From positions 1 to 53,549 of the forward strand of contig JAQTPK010000017.1 in assembly GCA_028712885.1 (NCBI GenBank): a stretch of 53,549 bases of DNA, given 5' to 3'. This DNA comes from Syntrophales bacterium (GTDB lineage Bacteria; Desulfobacterota; Syntrophia; Syntrophales; UBA4778). Positions within the stretch are counted from its first letter, which is position 1; every line of letters begins with the position of its first letter. Below the pieces are notes generated by a model, which was not told the origin of the DNA, ran no database searches, and saw nothing but the letters and a program-made list of their open reading frames with translations. The translations under genes and the position numbers were made by a program. Shown one piece after another: positions 1,898 through 40,109 of this stretch.

Positions 1898-1931
1898 AAT
1901 ACGGCTAATTTATGCTATCGATTGCCGTATT
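1898..1931. promoter_or_regulatory. Inverted repeat upstream of the nrpR-like gene
   Basis: AATACGGC at 1898-1905 is repeated exactly in inverted orientation as GCCGTATT at 1924-1931, with an 18-base spacer. It lies just before the favoured start of the NrpR-like regulator (1945), where an autoregulatory operator would be expected. It does not match the archaeal NrpR operator GGAA-N6-TTCC, so binding by NrpR is a guess. Confidence 0.4.
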
Positions 1932-1944
1932 TTGGGATAACGAC

Positions 1945-2982
1945 ATGCTTACTGCAAGCAATACAAAAAAAACCGGGCTTTTCGAGTCTGAAGATATGGA
2001 GAAGAAAACCCTCCTGATTTTGAGGATTCTGTCTGAATCCCGGAAGCCGGTCGGGTCGCGCTCAATATCCCGGCACATGAACGAAATGGGTGTAAAGCTC
2101 TCCGAGCGCACTATCCGTTATCATCTGCGCGTCATGGACGAGAGGGGCTTTACCAGGCTTGTCGGCCGGCGCAACGGACGCGTTATAACCGATGAAGGCA
2201 GGGAGGAAATCCGCAACGCCCGCGTCCAGGACAAGATAGGCTTCGTGATTTCCCGCATTGAAAATCTCGCCTTCTGCACGACTTTCGATCCGGTTTCAAA
2301 AAAGGGGCTGGTGCCGGTAAACATATCCTATTTTGAAAAAGAGCGGTTCAGGGAGGCCCTGGACATTATGCTGCCCGTATTCAAAAGCCGCTATTCGGTC
2401 AGCGAGTTCGTCACCGTCGCCAAAGAGGGGCAGACGATCGGGGGTATCCTTGTGCCTCCCGGCAAGATCGCCGTCGCCACGGTATGCAGCATCATTATCA
2501 ACGGGGTTTTTCTGAAGAGCGGCATCCCCATGGATTCTAAATTCGGGGGCATACTGCAGATCTCCGACTCCAGGCCGCTGCGTTTCGTCGAGCTTATATA
2601 TTATAACGGCTCATCCCTCGATCCTTCGGAAGCTTTCATCCGGGCGAATATGACCTCCGTCGGGAAAGCAGTGGAAACGGGATTCGGGAACGTTCTCGCA
2701 AACTACAGGGAGATACCGGGCATGTGCAGGATGCTGACGGGCACAATCCTGATTCATTTGCGAAAAGCGGGAATCAACGGGGTCATCGCAATAGGCGAAA
2801 AGAGCGAAACCGTGTACCCGGTCCCGGTCGATGTGAACAAGGCAGGCGTGGTCCTGATCGGAGGACTGAACCCTGTCGCCTGCGCCCGGGAAGCCGGCCT
2901 GGAGCCGGAACACCACGCCATGTCGACTCTTCTCGAGTACGAAAATTTTATCAACATTGAGGATGTGAAAAGATCGTTATAG
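1945..2982 (+). CDS. NrpR-like transcriptional regulator (winged helix + DUF128/NrpR domain)
   Basis: This is a 345-residue protein from ATG 1945. The frame is also open upstream to an ATG at 1912, but that would place the inverted repeat inside the gene; another Met at 1996 is possible. Residues 20-90 form a winged helix (LLILRILSESRKPVGSRSIS, then LSERTIRYHLRVMDERGFT), as in NrpR. The remainder is one NrpR regulatory domain (DUF128) with the typical segments KIAVATVCSIIINGVFLKSG, SKFGGILQI and NKAGVVLIGGLNPVA. In methanogens NrpR represses nitrogen-assimilation genes and releases DNA when it binds 2-oxoglutarate. Here the next gene, 43 bases downstream on the same strand, is glutamate dehydrogenase, which consumes 2-oxoglutarate and ammonia. 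A regulator-target pair is therefore likely (inference). The family call is strong; the start is uncertain. Confidence 0.85.
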   Translation: MLTASNTKKTGLFESEDMEKKTLLILRILSESRKPVGSRSISRHMNEMGVKLSERTIRYHLRVMDERGFTRLVGRRNGRVITDEGREEIRNARVQDKIGFVISRIENLAFCTTFDPVSKKGLVPVNISYFEKERFREALDIMLPVFKSRYSVSEFVTVAKEGQTIGGILVPPGKIAVATVCSIIINGVFLKSGIPMDSKFGGILQISDSRPLRFVELIYYNGSSLDPSEAFIRANMTSVGKAVETGFGNVLANYREIPGMCRMLTGTILIHLRKAGINGVIAIGEKSETVYPVPVDVNKAGVVLIGGLNPVACAREAGLEPEHHAMSTLLEYENFINIEDVKRSL

Positions 2983-3025
2983 GCCAGGCGGGTCTGGTTA
3001 AATAAATCAGTGCGGAGGAGAACAA

Positions 3026-4381
3026 GTGTCAGTAATCGCCGATGTGATTGAGAAGGTAAAGGGTCAGGATCCGGATCAGAATGAATTCCACCAGGCCGTG
3101 CAGGAGGTGCTCGAGACTCTTGAGCCGACCGTAAAAAAACACCCGGAGTTCGTGAAGGCCAAGATTTACGAGAGGATAGTCGAACCCGACAGGACCCTGA
3201 TTTTCAGGGTGCCGTGGGTTGACGACAGGGGGGCCGTCCAGGTGAACCGCGGTTTCAGGGTACAGTTCAATAATGCGATCGGCCCCTACAAAGGGGGCAT
3301 CAGGTTTCATCCTTCCGTCCGCCTGGGGATAATAAAATTCCTTGGCTTTGAGCAGATATTCAAAAATTCGCTGACGACCCTCCCCATGGGAGGCGCCAAG
3401 GGCGGTTCCGATTTCGATCCCAAGGGAAAATCCGACAACGAGGTAATGAAGTTCTGCCAGGCTTTCATGCGGGAGCTCTTTCGCCATATCGGTGCGGATG
3501 TAGACGTCCCCGCCGGCGACATAGGCGTGGGCGCGCGTGAAATAGGTTATCTTTACGGCTATTACAAGAAAATCCTCAACGAGCACACGGGCGTGCTGAC
3601 CGGCAAAGGCCTGGAGTACGGCGGAAGCCTGGTCAGGCCGGAGGCGACGGGCTACGGCTGCACGTATTTCGCAGCCGAGATGATGGCCACCAAAGGGATG
3701 AATTTCAAAAATAAAATCGTGGCAATCAGCGGGGCCGGAAATGTCGCCCAGTACGCAGTCGAAAAAGTGAACCAGCTCGGCGGAAAGGTTATCATGCTGT
3801 GCGATTCGGGTTCCTCCATCCTGGATGAAGAGGGAATTTGCAGCAGGAAAAACGCTTTCGTCATGAAGCTGAAAAATCAGAAGCGGGGCCGCATCAAGGA
3901 ATATATCCAGAAATACGATGCCCTTTGTTTTGAAAATAAAAGCGTCTGGGACGTCATACGGGACCAGGATATAAAAGTGCATATAGCCCTGCCGTGCGCG
4001 ACCCAGAATGAGATCGAAAGCTCCCACGCGGAGGCGCTCGTGCGCAACGGCTGCGTATGTGTGGCGGAGGGGGCAAATATGCCGTCCACGCCCGAGGCCG
4101 TCAAAATTTTCCAGGATGCCGGAATCCTGTACGGTCCCGGCAAGGCGGCCAACGCGGGGGGCGTCGCGACTTCCGGACTGGAAATGACTCAGAACAGCAT
4201 GAGGCTCTCCTGGAACAGGGAAGAGGTGGACAACCGGCTTCTCATGATCATGAGAAATATCCATAAATCCTGCCTCGATGCCGCCGAGGCCTACGGGAAT
4301 AAAGGGGATTATGTGGCGGGCGCAAACATAGCCGGTTTCCTGAAAGTAGCGAAGGCGATGCTTGCCTACGGCATAGTTTAA
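3026..4381 (+). CDS. gdhA: NADP-type glutamate dehydrogenase
   Basis: The enzyme interconverts 2-oxoglutarate plus ammonia and glutamate. It has 451 residues, normal for the small hexameric bacterial/fungal class. The start is GTG, 5 bases after a strong GGAGGAG ribosome site. Visible signatures are RGFRVQFNNAIGPYKGGIRF (substrate pocket), TLPMGGAKGGSDFDPKGKS with catalytic Lys125, the PAGDIGVG loop, and the nucleotide-binding fold ISGAGNVAQYAVEK. The C-terminal GKAANAGGVATSGLEM segment is intact, so the enzyme should be active. It is preceded by an NrpR-like regulator and followed by a strong terminator, so nrpR-gdhA probably forms one small unit. NADP rather than NAD preference is inferred from overall family resemblance and not from a tested residue. 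Confidence 0.95.
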   Translation: MSVIADVIEKVKGQDPDQNEFHQAVQEVLETLEPTVKKHPEFVKAKIYERIVEPDRTLIFRVPWVDDRGAVQVNRGFRVQFNNAIGPYKGGIRFHPSVRLGIIKFLGFEQIFKNSLTTLPMGGAKGGSDFDPKGKSDNEVMKFCQAFMRELFRHIGADVDVPAGDIGVGAREIGYLYGYYKKILNEHTGVLTGKGLEYGGSLVRPEATGYGCTYFAAEMMATKGMNFKNKIVAISGAGNVAQYAVEKVNQLGGKVIMLCDSGSSILDEEGICSRKNAFVMKLKNQKRGRIKEYIQKYDALCFENKSVWDVIRDQDIKVHIALPCATQNEIESSHAEALVRNGCVCVAEGANMPSTPEAVKIFQDAGILYGPGKAANAGGVATSGLEMTQNSMRLSWNREEVDNRLLMIMRNIHKSCLDAAEAYGNKGDYVAGANIAGFLKVAKAMLAYGIV

Positions 4382-10615: not shown

Positions 10616-11257
10616 GCGCTGCCTCCCATCTGAGGATCCGACATTGGCCTATATTATTCTATTCCCGCGCTGACGGGGTCTGCAAGATAAATTCGCGCGA
10701 CCGGTTGCCATTCCCCTTGCGCGGCTTCCGCGGCATACGGAGGGTCAACTCTGTTGGCGGTTCCTGTTTGATCTCGGCCGAGCTGCTTCCGGCATCTGCC
10801 CGGAATAGTTATGCTCAAGGCCGGCCTTACCCGGGGCATGAATGTTGCGCTCCTTCAAGAAAAAACGACACAGGGAGGGAAATATGAACCGTGTATTTTT
10901 ATCAGGTTCTGCTCCCTTCTCTGCAATTCTCCTTCATGTCCGGAAGAGTGGAAAAAAGGCGGAATTCGATGAATCGAAGGGCGTCAGGCGTGAAGGCGTA
11001 AAGTGATTTTTTTAAAACACCTTACACCTTACGCCTCACGCCTTACTCTTACCCTCCTTTGAAAGATTCCGGAAAAGTATACGGCAGATGAACGTGCCGC
11101 AATAGAGGAGATAATCTCAAAAACGGGCTCGAAAAGTATTAGAACGAAATCCCGTGAATTGAACCTGATTGCGCCGGGGTTGGATTTTATTTGACCGGAT
11201 GTTTTCAGGGTGATAGCGTCCGAAACGCAACCCATGCATCCCGGAAGGAATCAGTTC
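10616..11257. other. Long intergenic region upstream of aspS
   Basis: About 640 bases hold no convincing gene. A 40-codon frame at 10884-11006 starts MNRVFLSG after a good GGGAGGG site and faintly recalls the start of single-strand-binding proteins, but it ends inside the repeat. An open frame at 11063-11194 has coding-like composition but no start codon. Both could be remnants. The heptamer inverted repeat lies in the middle. Confidence 0.4.
10980..11047. repeat. Inverted heptamer arrays (GTAAGGC-type)
   Basis: GGCGTCA/GGCGTGA-type units at 10980-11000 face CCTTACG/CCTCACG-type units at 11020-11047 on the other side of a 20-base A/T-rich loop. Read on one strand, both arms are tandem 7-mers of the form GTAAGGC. 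The two arms can fold into a long imperfect hairpin. Confidence 0.7.
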
Positions 11258-13375
11258 ATGACTTTCAAAGATCGATCTTTTTGCGGAACACTGGGCGAAC
11301 CCGATGAGGGCAGAAGAGTTTTTCTGGCCGGGTGGGTGGACGCCCTGCGGGACCACGGCGAGGTGATTTTTATTCACCTTCGCGACCGGAGCGGCATCGT
11401 CCAGGTGGTATTCTCTCCCGAAACGGCGGACCAGGAGGTCTGCCGGAAAGCGGGGCTCCTCAGGAGCGAATTCTGCGTACGCGTAAGCGGCAGTCTTGTA
11501 AGACGCGCGCAAGGCACGGAAAACCCCGGGATTCCCACCGGCAATGTCGAGGTGATGGCGGCCGATCTCGATATCCTGGGCAGGGCAGGCGCCCTTCCTT
11601 TTCAGATTTCGGAAAAATCCATGGTCGCCGGCCTCGCGGGAAACCGGGAGGAATCGGTGGCGGAGGACCTGCGGCTCCAGTACCGCTATCTCGACCTGCG
11701 CCGCCCGACAATGCAGGAGCACCTGATAAACCGGCACCGTATCGTGAAGGCCGTCCGCGATTATCTCGATGAGCAGGGTTTTATCGAGGTGGAAACGCCG
11801 ATACTCACGAAAAGCACTCCCGAGGGGGCGCGGGACTACCTGGTTCCGAGCCGCCACTACCCGAAAAACTTCTATGCCCTCCCCCAATCCCCCCAGCTTT
11901 TCAAGCAGCTGCTGATGGTGGCGGGCCTGGAACGCTATTTTCAGATCGCCAGGTGCTTCCGAGACGAAGACCTGCGGCCGAACCGTCAGCCGGAATTCAC
12001 CCAGCTCGACCTCGAGGCTTCATTTATCGATGAAGAATTCATCTACCGTCTCTTCGAAGAGCTGACGGCAAGGATATTCTCCGTCGGCGGCGTCGATCTC
12101 CCCCGTCCCTTCCCGCGGATGACCTGGCTCGACGCCATGAACAGCACCGGCTCCGACAGGCCCGACCTGCGTTTTTCCATGTTTTTCAGGGATGCAACGG
12201 GAATTTTCTCGGAAACACGATATGGGATTTTCCGGCAGATCCTGGATCGCGGCGGGTGCATCAAGGGGATCAACGTCAAGGGCCAGTCCGCGCGGCTGAG
12301 CAAGAACGTGCTGCAGAACGAATACGCCAAAGAGATCGTCCCCGGCTTCGGGGCGAAAGGGATGACCTGGATGCGCGCCGTGAATGGCGGGCTCGAATCC
12401 AATATCGTCCAGTTTTTCAGCAAGCGCGAACAGGACGAAATAGTCCGCCTTTATGAAGCCGAAGAAGGGGACGTGATCCTGATCATCGCGGATCCCTCAT
12501 GGAAACTGGTCTGCTCGGCCCTGGGGCAGCTTCGCCTTCATGTGGCGGGAAGACTGGGCCTTATCCCCGGCAATATTTTCAGTCCCCTGTGGGTAACCGA
12601 CTTTCCCCTTTTCGAGCCCGTGGAAGGGGGGGTAACCTCAAGCCACCATCCTTTCACCATGCCGGACCGGACGGATTTCGATCCGGGCGACATCGAAGAA
12701 CTGCTGTCCCTGCGCTCCCGCGCATACGACCTGGTCGTGAACGGGGAGGAGCTGGGCGGCGGGAGCATCCGGATCAATGACACGGCCCTCCAGAACAGGA
12801 TCTTCAAGGCCCTGGGCCTTTCGGAAAACGAAGTCGAAGAGAAATTCGGCTTTTTCCTGCGGGCCCTGGAGTTCGGGGCCCCGCCGCACGGCGGGATCGC
12901 GCTCGGGATAGACCGGGTCGTATCCATGATCCTCGGGACCTCTTCCATCCGGGAAGTGATTGCTTTCCCCAAAAACCGCAGCGCTTTTTGTCCTCTGACC
13001 CGCGCCCCTTCCACCGTCTCGGCCGGACAGCTTGCCGAACTTGAACTCCTCGATCTTGGCGGCGCCGCGCTGCTGCCCGGGACGAAAGAACAGGAGGACT
13101 TTCTCGATTCGCTGTCATGGGTATCCCGGATCAGGATCAACGGCGGCGAACGGGCGGCGATCAGCGAAGCCGTAGAAGCGGCAAAAAGTTGCGCCGCAAA
13201 GATCAATGCCGCGGCAGGAGAAGAGGAGCCGATGTTTTCCGTAGCTCCCGCCTCCAACCGCACGCGCCCGGGGAACGAAGCGAGGGAAAGCCGGTTTGCA
13301 AAAGAACAGGATATTTTCAGGAACGCTCCCGAGGTCAAAGGGGGCTTTTTCAAGACGGCAAGCATTCTGGAATAA
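11258..13375 (+). CDS. aspS: Aspartyl-tRNA synthetase fused to a GatC domain
   Basis: This 705-residue protein starts at ATG 11258, 8 bases after GGAAGGA; an upstream GTG (11210) lacks a site. Residues 1-600 are a complete bacterial AspRS: OB-fold tRNA-binding domain, motif 2 CFRDEDLRPNRQPEFTQLDL, the HHPFTMP loop, ELGGGSIRI, and motif 3 GGIALGIDRVV. His33 in LRDHGEVIF matches the residue found in non-discriminating AspRS, where E. coli has Leu, so it probably also charges tRNA-Asn. Residues 608-705 continue in frame as GatC, ending FRNAPEVKGGFFKTASILE, which is the GatC C-terminal motif. The fusion would hold the amidotransferase on the synthetase. gatA-like and gatB genes follow 12 and 0 bases apart. 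Confidence 0.92.
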   Translation: MTFKDRSFCGTLGEPDEGRRVFLAGWVDALRDHGEVIFIHLRDRSGIVQVVFSPETADQEVCRKAGLLRSEFCVRVSGSLVRRAQGTENPGIPTGNVEVMAADLDILGRAGALPFQISEKSMVAGLAGNREESVAEDLRLQYRYLDLRRPTMQEHLINRHRIVKAVRDYLDEQGFIEVETPILTKSTPEGARDYLVPSRHYPKNFYALPQSPQLFKQLLMVAGLERYFQIARCFRDEDLRPNRQPEFTQLDLEASFIDEEFIYRLFEELTARIFSVGGVDLPRPFPRMTWLDAMNSTGSDRPDLRFSMFFRDATGIFSETRYGIFRQILDRGGCIKGINVKGQSARLSKNVLQNEYAKEIVPGFGAKGMTWMRAVNGGLESNIVQFFSKREQDEIVRLYEAEEGDVILIIADPSWKLVCSALGQLRLHVAGRLGLIPGNIFSPLWVTDFPLFEPVEGGVTSSHHPFTMPDRTDFDPGDIEELLSLRSRAYDLVVNGEELGGGSIRINDTALQNRIFKALGLSENEVEEKFGFFLRALEFGAPPHGGIALGIDRVVSMILGTSSIREVIAFPKNRSAFCPLTRAPSTVSAGQLAELELLDLGGAALLPGTKEQEDFLDSLSWVSRIRINGGERAAISEAVEAAKSCAAKINAAAGEEEPMFSVAPASNRTRPGNEARESRFAKEQDIFRNAPEVKGGFFKTASILE

Positions 13376-13387
13376 GGGGCTGCAGCA

Positions 13388-14596
13388 GTGGAACTATTTA
13401 CGCACAGGGAGACCGATCCGGCGGCTGTCTCCGGGAGGCCGGGGCTGCCGCTTTCAGGCAGACGGGTTGTGATTCAGCCGAATATGTCCAGGCGCGGGTG
13501 GCCGTGCAACGCCGGTTCGCGGGCCCTCGAAAACTACACCGCCCTGGAAGACGCCGCAATCATCCCCCGCCTGGAGAAAAGCGGCGCGCACCTGGCGGGA
13601 AATTCCCGCATGAGCGAGCTTGGTTTCGGACTTTCGGCGGATACGACCGTGCAGGCGCTGATCGAGAAAGAGGCCGATATCGCGCTCATGACCGATACGA
13701 TGGGCGAGGCCCGGGTGGCTGCGGCGCGGGCGGGTATTTTCGGATTCAAGCCGAGCTGGGGCATTGTCTCCCGGTTCGGCCTGATCGGACTCGTCCCTTC
13801 CATGGAGTGCTACGGCGTCGCAGCAGCGGATCCGGCGGACATCTCCGGCGTAATGCAGGCTATTTCCGGAAAGGACGATCGTGACTTTTCCATGCCTGAT
13901 GGAGAGCTCCCCGACTTCTCACAAGAGGGCAAAACTAAAACGGGGTCGCGCCGCGCCGGGATCGTCAAAGAGATGCTTTCGCTGCTGACGGATAAAGACC
14001 GCGGCCTGTTCCGGGAAAACCTGAAAATGCTCGGGAGTGCGGGCGTGGAGGTCGTGGAAGTGACGTTCCCCGAATTCGAACTCCTGCAGACGGCGCACCA
14101 GGTGATCGCCGCGGCGGAGGCTTCGTCCAGCGCCGGGAAATACGACGGGGTCCGCTACGGTTACCGCGCACCAGGGGCAAAAAACTGGAACGATATGTAT
14201 CTCGATTCCCGCGGGGCGGCTTTCGGCACGCTCGTTAAAGCCTTCCTGTTCCAGGGGGCGTATTTCCAGTTCGAAAATTATGCCGCTTTCGAAAATGCGT
14301 GCCGCGTCCGCCGGCGGCTTGTGCGTTCCATGGAGAATCTCCTCTCGGAACTGGATCTTCTCGTCTCCCCCACATGCAGAATGGTGCGAAAAGACGCCGC
14401 TCCCTCCGATGTCCGCGGCGCATACGAGGAGTTCATTCTGACCCTGCCGGCCAATCTGACGGGACAGCCCGCGCTTCAGGTTCCGGGAGATCCGGCCGGG
14501 GATTGCGTCGGCCTGCATCTCACGGCGAAGAGGCTGGACGACTCCCGGCTGCTTGCGCTGGGCAGGCGTCTGGCGGCGTCAAGAGGGGCGAAGTAA
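13388..14596 (+). CDS. GatA-like protein lacking the amidase catalytic triad
   Basis: This 402-residue protein (GatA is usually about 480) lies between aspS-gatC and gatB in one operon and starts at GTG 13388. The family is recognisable throughout: GSRALENYTALEDAAIIPRL, FGFKPSWGIVSRFGLIGLVP, KYDGVRYGY, DLLVSPTCRM. All three residues of the Lys-Ser-Ser triad are gone. The catalytic Lys of IKDN is Gln30 (VVIQPNM). About 28 residues containing the GGSSGGSA loop are deleted after residue 81. The nucleophile Ser of SDTGGSIR is Glu107 (TDTMGEAR). It therefore cannot release ammonia from glutamine by the known mechanism. The frame is intact and codon use matches its neighbours, which argues for a selected pseudoenzyme, perhaps structural or ammonia-using. 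Confidence 0.85.
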   Translation: MELFTHRETDPAAVSGRPGLPLSGRRVVIQPNMSRRGWPCNAGSRALENYTALEDAAIIPRLEKSGAHLAGNSRMSELGFGLSADTTVQALIEKEADIALMTDTMGEARVAAARAGIFGFKPSWGIVSRFGLIGLVPSMECYGVAAADPADISGVMQAISGKDDRDFSMPDGELPDFSQEGKTKTGSRRAGIVKEMLSLLTDKDRGLFRENLKMLGSAGVEVVEVTFPEFELLQTAHQVIAAAEASSSAGKYDGVRYGYRAPGAKNWNDMYLDSRGAAFGTLVKAFLFQGAYFQFENYAAFENACRVRRRLVRSMENLLSELDLLVSPTCRMVRKDAAPSDVRGAYEEFILTLPANLTGQPALQVPGDPAGDCVGLHLTAKRLDDSRLLALGRRLAASRGAK

Positions 14597-16024
14597 ATGA
14601 AGTACGAAGCTGTTATCGGCCTTGAAATTCACGTCCAGCTCAACGCAGCCACCAAGCTCTTCTGCGACTGCCCGAACCGGCCGGGCGACGAACCGAACCG
14701 CAATACATGTCCGGTCTGCCTCTGGTTTCCGGGGGCTTTCCCGCGGCTGAGCCGGGAAGCGCTCGAGAAAGCCGTTCTGGCCTGCCTGGCGCTGAATTGC
14801 ACGATCCAGCCGGTAAGCGCTTTCGACCAGAAGGTCTACTACTACCCGGACCTGCCGAAAGGATTTCAGCTCTCGCAGCACCACAAGCCCCTTGCCCGAA
14901 ACGGCTGGATCGATATCGCGGGCGAAAACGGCGAACCCAGGCGATTGCGGATTCACCACATCCACCTGGAGGAGGATGTGGCCAAGCTCGTTCATGAAAC
15001 TGAAGGCCGCACCCCGATCAGCCTTGTCGATTTCAACCGTGCGGGAACGCCCCTCATTGAAATCGTGAGCGAGCCGGACATGCGCAGTCCCCACGAGGCA
15101 ATGGAGTATGTGAAAACTCTGCGGGGCCAGCTCCGCTACACCGGGAGCGCGGAGTGCAGCATGGAGAAGGGGACGATGCGGGTGGACGCCAATATCTCCC
15201 TGCGTCAGGAAGGCAGCAGCGGATTCAACACAAAGGTGGAAGTTAAAAACATGAACTCGATCCGCAATGTCGGGGACGCAATAGCATACGAAATACGCCG
15301 CCAGACGGAGTGCCTGGAAAAGGGAGAGCCGATCGTCCTGCACACGCGGCTGTGGGATCCTGACAAGCGCGCTACCGCCCCGATGCGCGGCAAGTTCTCC
15401 GGCCCGTGCATCCCCGATCCCTCCGTTGCTTCCATCGTAATAAACGAGGAGTGGCTGAATGAAATCAGGGGAATGCTCCCGGAGATGCCGGACCGCAAGG
15501 CGGCGCGGTTTTCCGGAGATTACGGCCTTACGCCTGACGAGGCCGCGGCGATGAGCCTGGAGAGAGACATATCGGATTTTTTCGAGGCCGCGGCGAAATC
15601 GGGAGCAGCACCCCGCAAGGCGGCGAACTGGATTGCAGTCCACCTCGCCCCCGCGCTCCGGGACCGCGGCGCCGCGTTAGCGGAAACCCCGCTCTCGGCG
15701 GAGCGCTTTGCCGCGCTCCTTTCCCTGCTGGAGAAGGAAATCATTAATCCCCAGTCGGCGAAGGAGGTCCTGCTTCAGCTCCTTGCAACGGACGAGAGCC
15801 CCGAGAAAATCGTCGAAAAGGGAGGGTACGGCCAGGTATCGGACGCGGTGGAACTCGATGCCCTTATCGACAGGGTCATCGGTGAGCACCCCGCGGATGT
15901 CGCCGATTACCGGAAAGGCAACGCCAAGGTCCTGGGTTTCCTGATGGGGATAGCCATGAAGGCCTCAAAGGGAAAGGCGAATCCGAAGCTTCTCAGGGAG
16001 ATCCTCGCAAAACGGCTGGGATGA
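14597..16024 (+). CDS. gatB: Asp-tRNA(Asn)/Glu-tRNA(Gln) amidotransferase subunit B
   Basis: GatB phosphorylates the acyl group of mischarged Asp-tRNA(Asn) or Glu-tRNA(Gln) and transfers ammonia to it. It has 475 residues, full length, including the C-terminal helical/YqeY tail (KVLGFLMGIAMKASKGKANP). The ATG directly follows the gatA-like stop. Conserved parts are VIGLEIHVQL with metal ligands Glu10 and His12, NTCPVCLWFPGAFP, YYYPDLPKGFQLSQH, HIHLEED (Glu125), and MRVDANISLR. The block that normally reads EAHDYRYFPDPDLP is shortened to GKFSGPCIPDPSV (about residues 265-277). The kinase/transferase centre therefore looks mostly intact but diverged. It probably forms the complex with the GatA-like and AspRS-GatC proteins encoded upstream. 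Confidence 0.9.
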   Translation: MKYEAVIGLEIHVQLNAATKLFCDCPNRPGDEPNRNTCPVCLWFPGAFPRLSREALEKAVLACLALNCTIQPVSAFDQKVYYYPDLPKGFQLSQHHKPLARNGWIDIAGENGEPRRLRIHHIHLEEDVAKLVHETEGRTPISLVDFNRAGTPLIEIVSEPDMRSPHEAMEYVKTLRGQLRYTGSAECSMEKGTMRVDANISLRQEGSSGFNTKVEVKNMNSIRNVGDAIAYEIRRQTECLEKGEPIVLHTRLWDPDKRATAPMRGKFSGPCIPDPSVASIVINEEWLNEIRGMLPEMPDRKAARFSGDYGLTPDEAAAMSLERDISDFFEAAAKSGAAPRKAANWIAVHLAPALRDRGAALAETPLSAERFAALLSLLEKEIINPQSAKEVLLQLLATDESPEKIVEKGGYGQVSDAVELDALIDRVIGEHPADVADYRKGNAKVLGFLMGIAMKASKGKANPKLLREILAKRLG

Positions 16025-40035: not shown

Positions 40036-40109
40036 TCAGGGGTCATCCAACGGCAGGATACCAGACTTTGGATCTGGTCATGAAGGTTCGAATCCTTCCC
40101 CCTGAACCA
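40036..40109 (+). tRNA. tRNA-Gln (anticodon TTG)
   Basis: A 74-base cloverleaf has acceptor stem TCAGGGG paired with CCCCTGA, a D stem TCC/GGA, and anticodon stem CCAGA/TCTGG with loop CTTTGGA (anticodon TTG). The T arm is AAGG-TTCGAAT-CCTT, and the CCA end is encoded. It is read in the same direction as, and 28 bases before, the hisF-like gene, so one transcript may contain both. Confidence 0.95.

Follow-up and report, generated by a model that had tools for sequence, protein, structure and literature searches.

tRNA-dependent amidation has so far been understood as a glutamine-dependent process in which GatA is an obligate glutaminase. The described Asn transamidosomes of T. thermophilus (3kfu) and P. 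aeruginosa (4wj3) bring AspRS and GatCAB together on tRNA(Asn), and a bifunctional AspRS/GatC is already known as the NCBIfam model NF009460/PRK12820, which is silent on a GatA partner. Ammonia-dependent counterparts of glutamine-dependent enzymes are also known, i.e., AsnA versus AsnB and the NH3-dependent NAD synthetase, in which the glutaminase function was lost and the synthetase half kept. In Deinococcus and Thermus, an extra non-discriminating AspRS (ND-AspRS) serves tRNA-dependent Asn synthesis (PMC4206432); it stands beside the standard enzyme, is of the archaeal type, and works with a normal GatCAB. Yeast mitochondrial GatFAB is a GatCAB variant with an altered third subunit, a truncated form of which uses NH4Cl better, and its triad is made up of S154, cis-S130, and K52, with R334 contacting the glutamine carboxyl and D418 the amide (PMC4027206).

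Here we describe a three-gene operon within a 53,549-nucleotide contig of a Syntrophales bacterium (JAQTPK010000017.1, hereafter the window). The operon resembles canonical GatCAB in its GatA and GatB folds, in the metal and ATP ligands of GatB, in the presence of a GatC domain, and in its pairing with a non-discriminating AspRS. In contrast to canonical GatCAB, its GatA homologue has neither the glutaminase residues nor the Ser loop, its GatC is fused to AspRS, and its GatB carries lineage-specific invariant motifs. It differs from the 3kfu and 4wj3 transamidosomes in the covalent AspRS-GatC link and in a GatA that, going by its sequence, appears dead, whereas the GatA triad of GatFAB is intact. 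Unlike the ammonia-dependent counterparts named above, the operon keeps and rebuilds the glutaminase protein instead of deleting it. A search of the open literature (subscription papers being outside its scope) for an AspRS-GatC fusion or an inactive GatA retrieved nothing relevant, and the pseudo-GatA family and its strict link with the fusion, as well as the retuned GatB and the purF-aspS2-carA context reported below, appear to be undescribed in the literature searched.

A GatA homologue with a rebuilt glutaminase pocket

The gene at positions 13388-14596 (forward strand) starts with GTG and remains open for 402 codons, and its product is a GatA homologue by profile and by predicted fold. 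In profile searches the protein, which we call pseudo-GatA, scored 249 bits against TIGR00132 (next-best amidase model, 128 bits) and 180 bits against Pfam Amidase; the score of 249 lies below the curated cut-off of 481 bits for the GatA equivalog. About 50 N-terminal GatA residues are absent. The AlphaFold2 model (pLDDT 79.7, pTM 0.86) found its best PDB matches in the GatA chains of GatCAB, with a TM of about 0.84 on the query, and this agrees with a first-pass annotation, made from the sequence alone, which had claimed an open frame and a retained GatA fold.

We aligned 81 pseudo-GatA homologues with 21 canonical GatA proteins and used S. aureus GatA numbering. The catalytic Lys79 is replaced by Gln30 (VVIQPNM, 13475-13477), a position that holds Q in 74 homologues, H in three, R in two, W in one, and E in one, and never K. 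The nucleophile Ser178 is replaced by Glu107 (MGEAR, 13706-13708) in every homologue. Both substitutions had been read correctly in the first-pass annotation, as had the deletion of the GGSSGGSA loop, though its position had not: the 22-residue stretch that holds the motif and carries cis-Ser154 is missing from 81/81 homologues, and the alignment places the junction after residue 86 (13643-13648), not after residue 81. None of the 81 retains any of the three residues of the Lys - cis-Ser - Ser triad. The claim that all three catalytic residues are gone therefore stands, but it had overlooked three further changes, namely those of the glutamine-binding Arg358 to Phe286 (14243-14245; Tyr or Phe in 80 homologues, Leu in one), the glutamine-binding Asp425 to Phe349 (14432-14434; Phe in 70 of 81, never Asp), and the pocket residue Tyr309 to His237 (14096-14098; His in all 81). 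We take yeast S154, cis-S130, K52, R334, and D418 to be the equivalents of S. aureus Ser178, Ser154, Lys79, Arg358, and Asp425, respectively.

Finding identical pocket changes in 81/81 homologues is far beyond chance. Close pairs of pseudo-GatA genes show dN/dS values of 0.12-0.29, i.e., purifying selection, while pseudo-GatA and canonical GatA share a further 38 invariant positions. Since the same changes recur in every homologue and selection is purifying, the pocket is fixed and rebuilt and the gene is not decaying; an intact triad at this locus, which the first-pass annotation had named as the observation that would overturn its claim of a pseudo-amidase, was looked for and occurs in none of the 81. 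From the residues lost we strongly infer that pseudo-GatA has lost its glutaminase function.

Operon partners of pseudo-GatA

Pseudo-gatA begins 12 bases past aspS2-gatC (11210-13375, forward strand), which encodes a 721 aa second-type AspRS with a C-terminal GatC-like domain; homology begins near 11246-11258. This protein matches NF009460/PRK12820 with 1212.8 bits over residues 14-721, which is below the curated cut-off of 1379, although the architecture is the same. Its C-terminal 106 residues (616-721, encoded at 13055-13372) align to canonical GatC by HHalign with a probability of 94.5, an E-value of 7e-8, and the same C-terminal ending, and TIGR00135 matches the domain weakly in five relatives. 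The GatC subunit is thus present as a C-terminal domain of AspRS2, so that AspRS and GatC form one chain. The fused AspRS2 retains the class II catalytic motifs, as well as His31 in 67/67 and Gly83 in 64/67 proteins, two residues that we take as marks of a non-discriminating bacterial AspRS able to charge tRNA(Asn). The canonical AspRS proteins of the window's order mostly have His31 as well; in the genome G038, which has an AsnRS, the canonical copy carries Leu31.

The gatB gene (14597-16024, forward strand, 475 aa) directly follows pseudo-gatA. Its product retains Glu10, His12, the glutamate of EED, Glu155, Lys88, and KNxNS, which correspond to Mg/ATP ligands named for yeast GatB (PMC4027206). 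In comparison with canonical GatB, dozens of positions differ while being invariant within each group, some of them near conserved active-site motifs. For instance, residues 77-82 (14825-14842) read DQKVYY where canonical GatB has ARKNYF, with D77, Q78, V80, and Y82 invariant in 78 paralogues and A, R, N, and F invariant in 21 canonical proteins. Likewise, residues 267-277 (15395-15427) form F-x-G-P-C-x-PDPSV with a three-residue deletion relative to canonical EEAHDYRYFPDPDL, the core of the change being AHDYRYFPDPDL to G-PCxPDPSV.

Distribution of the operon and its tie to the GatC fusion

When one genome per species was scanned (GTDB 220), 107 relatives were matched, 80 of which were kept. 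Most are Thermodesulfobacteriota, including Syntrophus, Smithella, Desulfosarcina alkanivorans, Desulforhabdus, and Desulfobulbus alkaliphilus; some records carry other phylum names, which may reflect transfer or mislabelled MAGs. The order aspS2-gatC, pseudo-gatA, gatB is constant in the loci examined except at contig ends, the genes being separated by a median of 17 and 5 bases, and the claim of a pseudo-amidase encoded in an intact operon is supported by this conserved arrangement together with the alignment. One apparent N-terminal truncation (L046) proved to be a stretch of undetermined bases (N) in the assembly, and one apparent absence of pseudo-GatA (G126) was explained by the end of the contig, where the gene is cut off after its first 105 residues. 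No neighbour beyond the three operon genes was conserved among the loci compared.

A tie between the operon and ammonia metabolism through gdhA (3026-4381) had also been suggested, but we consider this link weak: gdhA is 9 kb from the operon, and none of the genes flanking the three-gene unit is conserved. An NrpR-like nitrogen regulator (NRD1_2 domain), a type best known from methanogens, is encoded directly upstream of gdhA, the two together spanning 1912-4381 of the window. Neither the NrpR-type operator GGAA-N6-TTCC nor other dyads were found in 64 regions upstream of the operon, and GGAA-N6-TTCC matches across the window are at chance level. No structured RNA was found near the operon, the only one being a tRNA-Gln (TTG) at 40036-40109; two tRNA-Gln (CTG) genes are on other contigs, one of them beside glnS (contig C11). 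A gene for a HerA-like C-terminal ATPase (PF05872; 9128-10615, reverse strand) lies beside the operon.

Second-type and canonical AspRS proteins separate cleanly (>840 versus <610 bits), and second-type AspRS without GatC is found in 12 genomes (loci L197, L198, L199, L200, and L231-L238). Wherever the contig allows, purF is directly upstream of this unfused aspS2, and downstream are carA, guaA, and carB (purL and dapF being close by in some cases) or, in one case, amt-glnK. The unfused gene is an aminoacyl-tRNA synthetase paralogue inside a cluster of glutamine amidotransferases. We regard this purF-aspS2-carA context, which lies outside the window, as a better nitrogen link than gdhA. In a tree with modest support, the unfused proteins for the most part diverge below the fused ones, a single nested form being the exception. 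Genome G053 also has, at a distance of about 4 kb from its unfused aspS2, an amidase-like frame (L197:2279-3601, 440 aa) with 23% identity to pseudo-GatA.

Pseudo-GatA is present in 16/16 tested genomes with the GatC fusion (one copy being truncated where its contig stops) and in 0/23 without it, i.e., in none of 11 with only unfused second-type AspRS and in none of 12 without any second-type AspRS. Leaving out the contig-end case, Fisher's test gives p = 6e-11 for this association, a figure that does not represent a test on independent samples since the genomes are related.

Canonical Asn-tRNA machinery in the same genomes

The first-pass annotation had advised a search for a second, canonical gatA, and one is present: the source genome also encodes canonical gatC-gatA-gatB on contig C78. 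This rules out pseudo-GatA as the cell's only GatA, and the idea that the cell lives without a glutaminase is wrong; with canonical gatA, gatB, and gatC elsewhere in the genome, the operon is an extra system and not the sole route to Asn-tRNA. A second AspRS (contig C95) and a GlnRS are also encoded, and no AsnRS was found in the source genome. Among the tRNAs detected, tRNA(Asn) (U1-A72) and tRNA(Asp) (G1-C72) are each represented once; the tRNA search of this genome gave no special extra copy of either and no special acceptor tRNA.

A GatA that scores above the family cut-off is present in 45 of 50 operon-bearing genomes, and in two of the remaining five the canonical GatA is in pieces, owing to contig ends or a broken frame. 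In genomes G004, G005, G010, G034, and G043, neither an AsnRS nor any full-length GatA, GatB, or GatC was detected at the E-values used, although some of these genomes are near complete, e.g., G005 (100%, 30 contigs). The presence of the operon showed no link to the absence of AsnB, AsnB-like genes occurring in 7/14 genomes with the operon and 19/46 others. Since canonical GatCAB should by itself suffice for making Asn-tRNA(Asn), the second operon must add something.

Proposed function and alternatives

In our preferred reading, to which we assign a probability of roughly 0.5, the operon specifies a second transamidosome that is self-contained and forms Asn-tRNA(Asn) without hydrolysing glutamine, free ammonium being the most likely nitrogen source. 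In such a scheme, the fused AspRS2-GatC would load aspartate onto tRNA(Asn), for which it has the catalytic residues as well as both determinants of a non-discriminating enzyme. GatB would then phosphorylate the aspartyl side chain using ATP, a step made plausible by the presence of its known ligands, and an amine would attack the activated aspartyl group. Pseudo-GatA, presumably unable to hydrolyse glutamine, would bridge GatB and the GatC domain and form the entrance of the ammonia tunnel. The amine would most likely be free ammonia or ammonium, taken from solution via the rebuilt GatA pocket, where aromatic residues accompany the invariant Glu107 and His237.

Known amidotransferases accept NH4Cl instead of glutamine in vitro (PMC4027206), and AsnA is a precedent for an ammonia-dependent twin of a glutamine enzyme (PMC9437257). 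In favor of the preferred reading we count the fixed loss of the glutaminase residues under purifying selection, the retained GatB ligands and AspRS2 determinants, the constant operon and its tie to the fusion, the lack of an AsnRS beside a single tRNA(Asn) with U1-A72, the extra ND-AspRS of Deinococcus and Thermus, the NH4Cl precedent, and the unfused AspRS2 among nitrogen genes; against it stand the redundancy with canonical GatCAB, the lack of a shared neighbour or a nitrogen-regulator site at the operon, and the lack of a correlation with AsnB. Furthermore, it is not obvious why a switch in ammonia source alone should require the dozens of invariant GatB differences. On slightly better than even odds, we would accept the broader statement that this is a glutamine-independent tRNA amidotransferase, in which GatA has been turned into a selective pore for ammonium or another amine with a Glu-His-aromatic pocket and GatB has been retuned, serving either paired Asn-tRNA routes or a different aminoacyl-tRNA.

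We find it unlikely, but worth weighing, that the remodelled pocket binds another amine or small donor, yielding some modified form of aspartyl-tRNA that is not Asn-tRNA, or a product for non-ribosomal use. The residues co-fixed in both pockets (Glu107, His237, and the aromatics in GatA; Asp77, Gln78, Val80, Tyr82, and PCxPDPSV in GatB) speak for such a nucleophile, as does the redundancy with canonical GatCAB. However, the operon has no conserved biosynthetic gene next to it, AspRS2 retains the standard Asp and tRNA(Asn) determinants, and the single tRNA(Asn) and tRNA(Asp) have no special acceptor tRNA beside them in the tRNA search. A similarly low standing goes to a docking or regulatory particle that would hand Asp-tRNA(Asn) to canonical GatCAB or another amidase, with ammonia being made elsewhere. 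Canonical GatA, GatB, and GatC are indeed found in nearly all genomes with the operon, and pseudo-GatA preserves the GatA fold along with 38 invariant positions, but such a scaffold would not need to retain the kinase ligands of GatB, nor would a pure scaffold require an invariant Glu107 and His237 in the pocket.

It seems quite improbable that pseudo-GatA has gained a new hydrolysis, e.g., one based on Glu107 and His237, that releases ammonia for GatB from a different amide donor. The invariant Glu and His at the pocket positions of Ser178 and Tyr309 would suit it, but the cis-Ser loop is wholly gone, both glutamine-binding residues have become hydrophobic, and we know of no amidase-signature enzyme that works by Glu/His-type chemistry. 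Finally, a decaying duplicate or a sequencing or assembly error, which lost catalytic residues beside a paralogue might suggest, is effectively dismissed, as recent decay or assembly error is ruled out by dN/dS of 0.12-0.29 and by the recurrence of the changes in 81 genomes that span many genera and come from independent assemblies, with open frames and the operon order kept.

In addition to their normal enzyme for forming Asn on tRNA, many anaerobic bacteria carry a second, three-gene version whose glutaminase subunit has been rebuilt and, by its sequence, disabled for good; this suggests that the version draws nitrogen directly from ammonium or some other donor. Homology-based annotation names pseudo-GatA proteins GatA, although they are predicted to be unable to carry out GatA chemistry. 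If the reading of an ammonium-fed second transamidosome is true, at least 81 genomes would encode a natural amidotransferase uncoupled from glutamine, and pseudo-GatA would open to test which roles GatA has apart from ammonia production, in what way the tunnel receives its ammonia, and whether the decoding of Asn codons can be coupled to the supply of ammonium.
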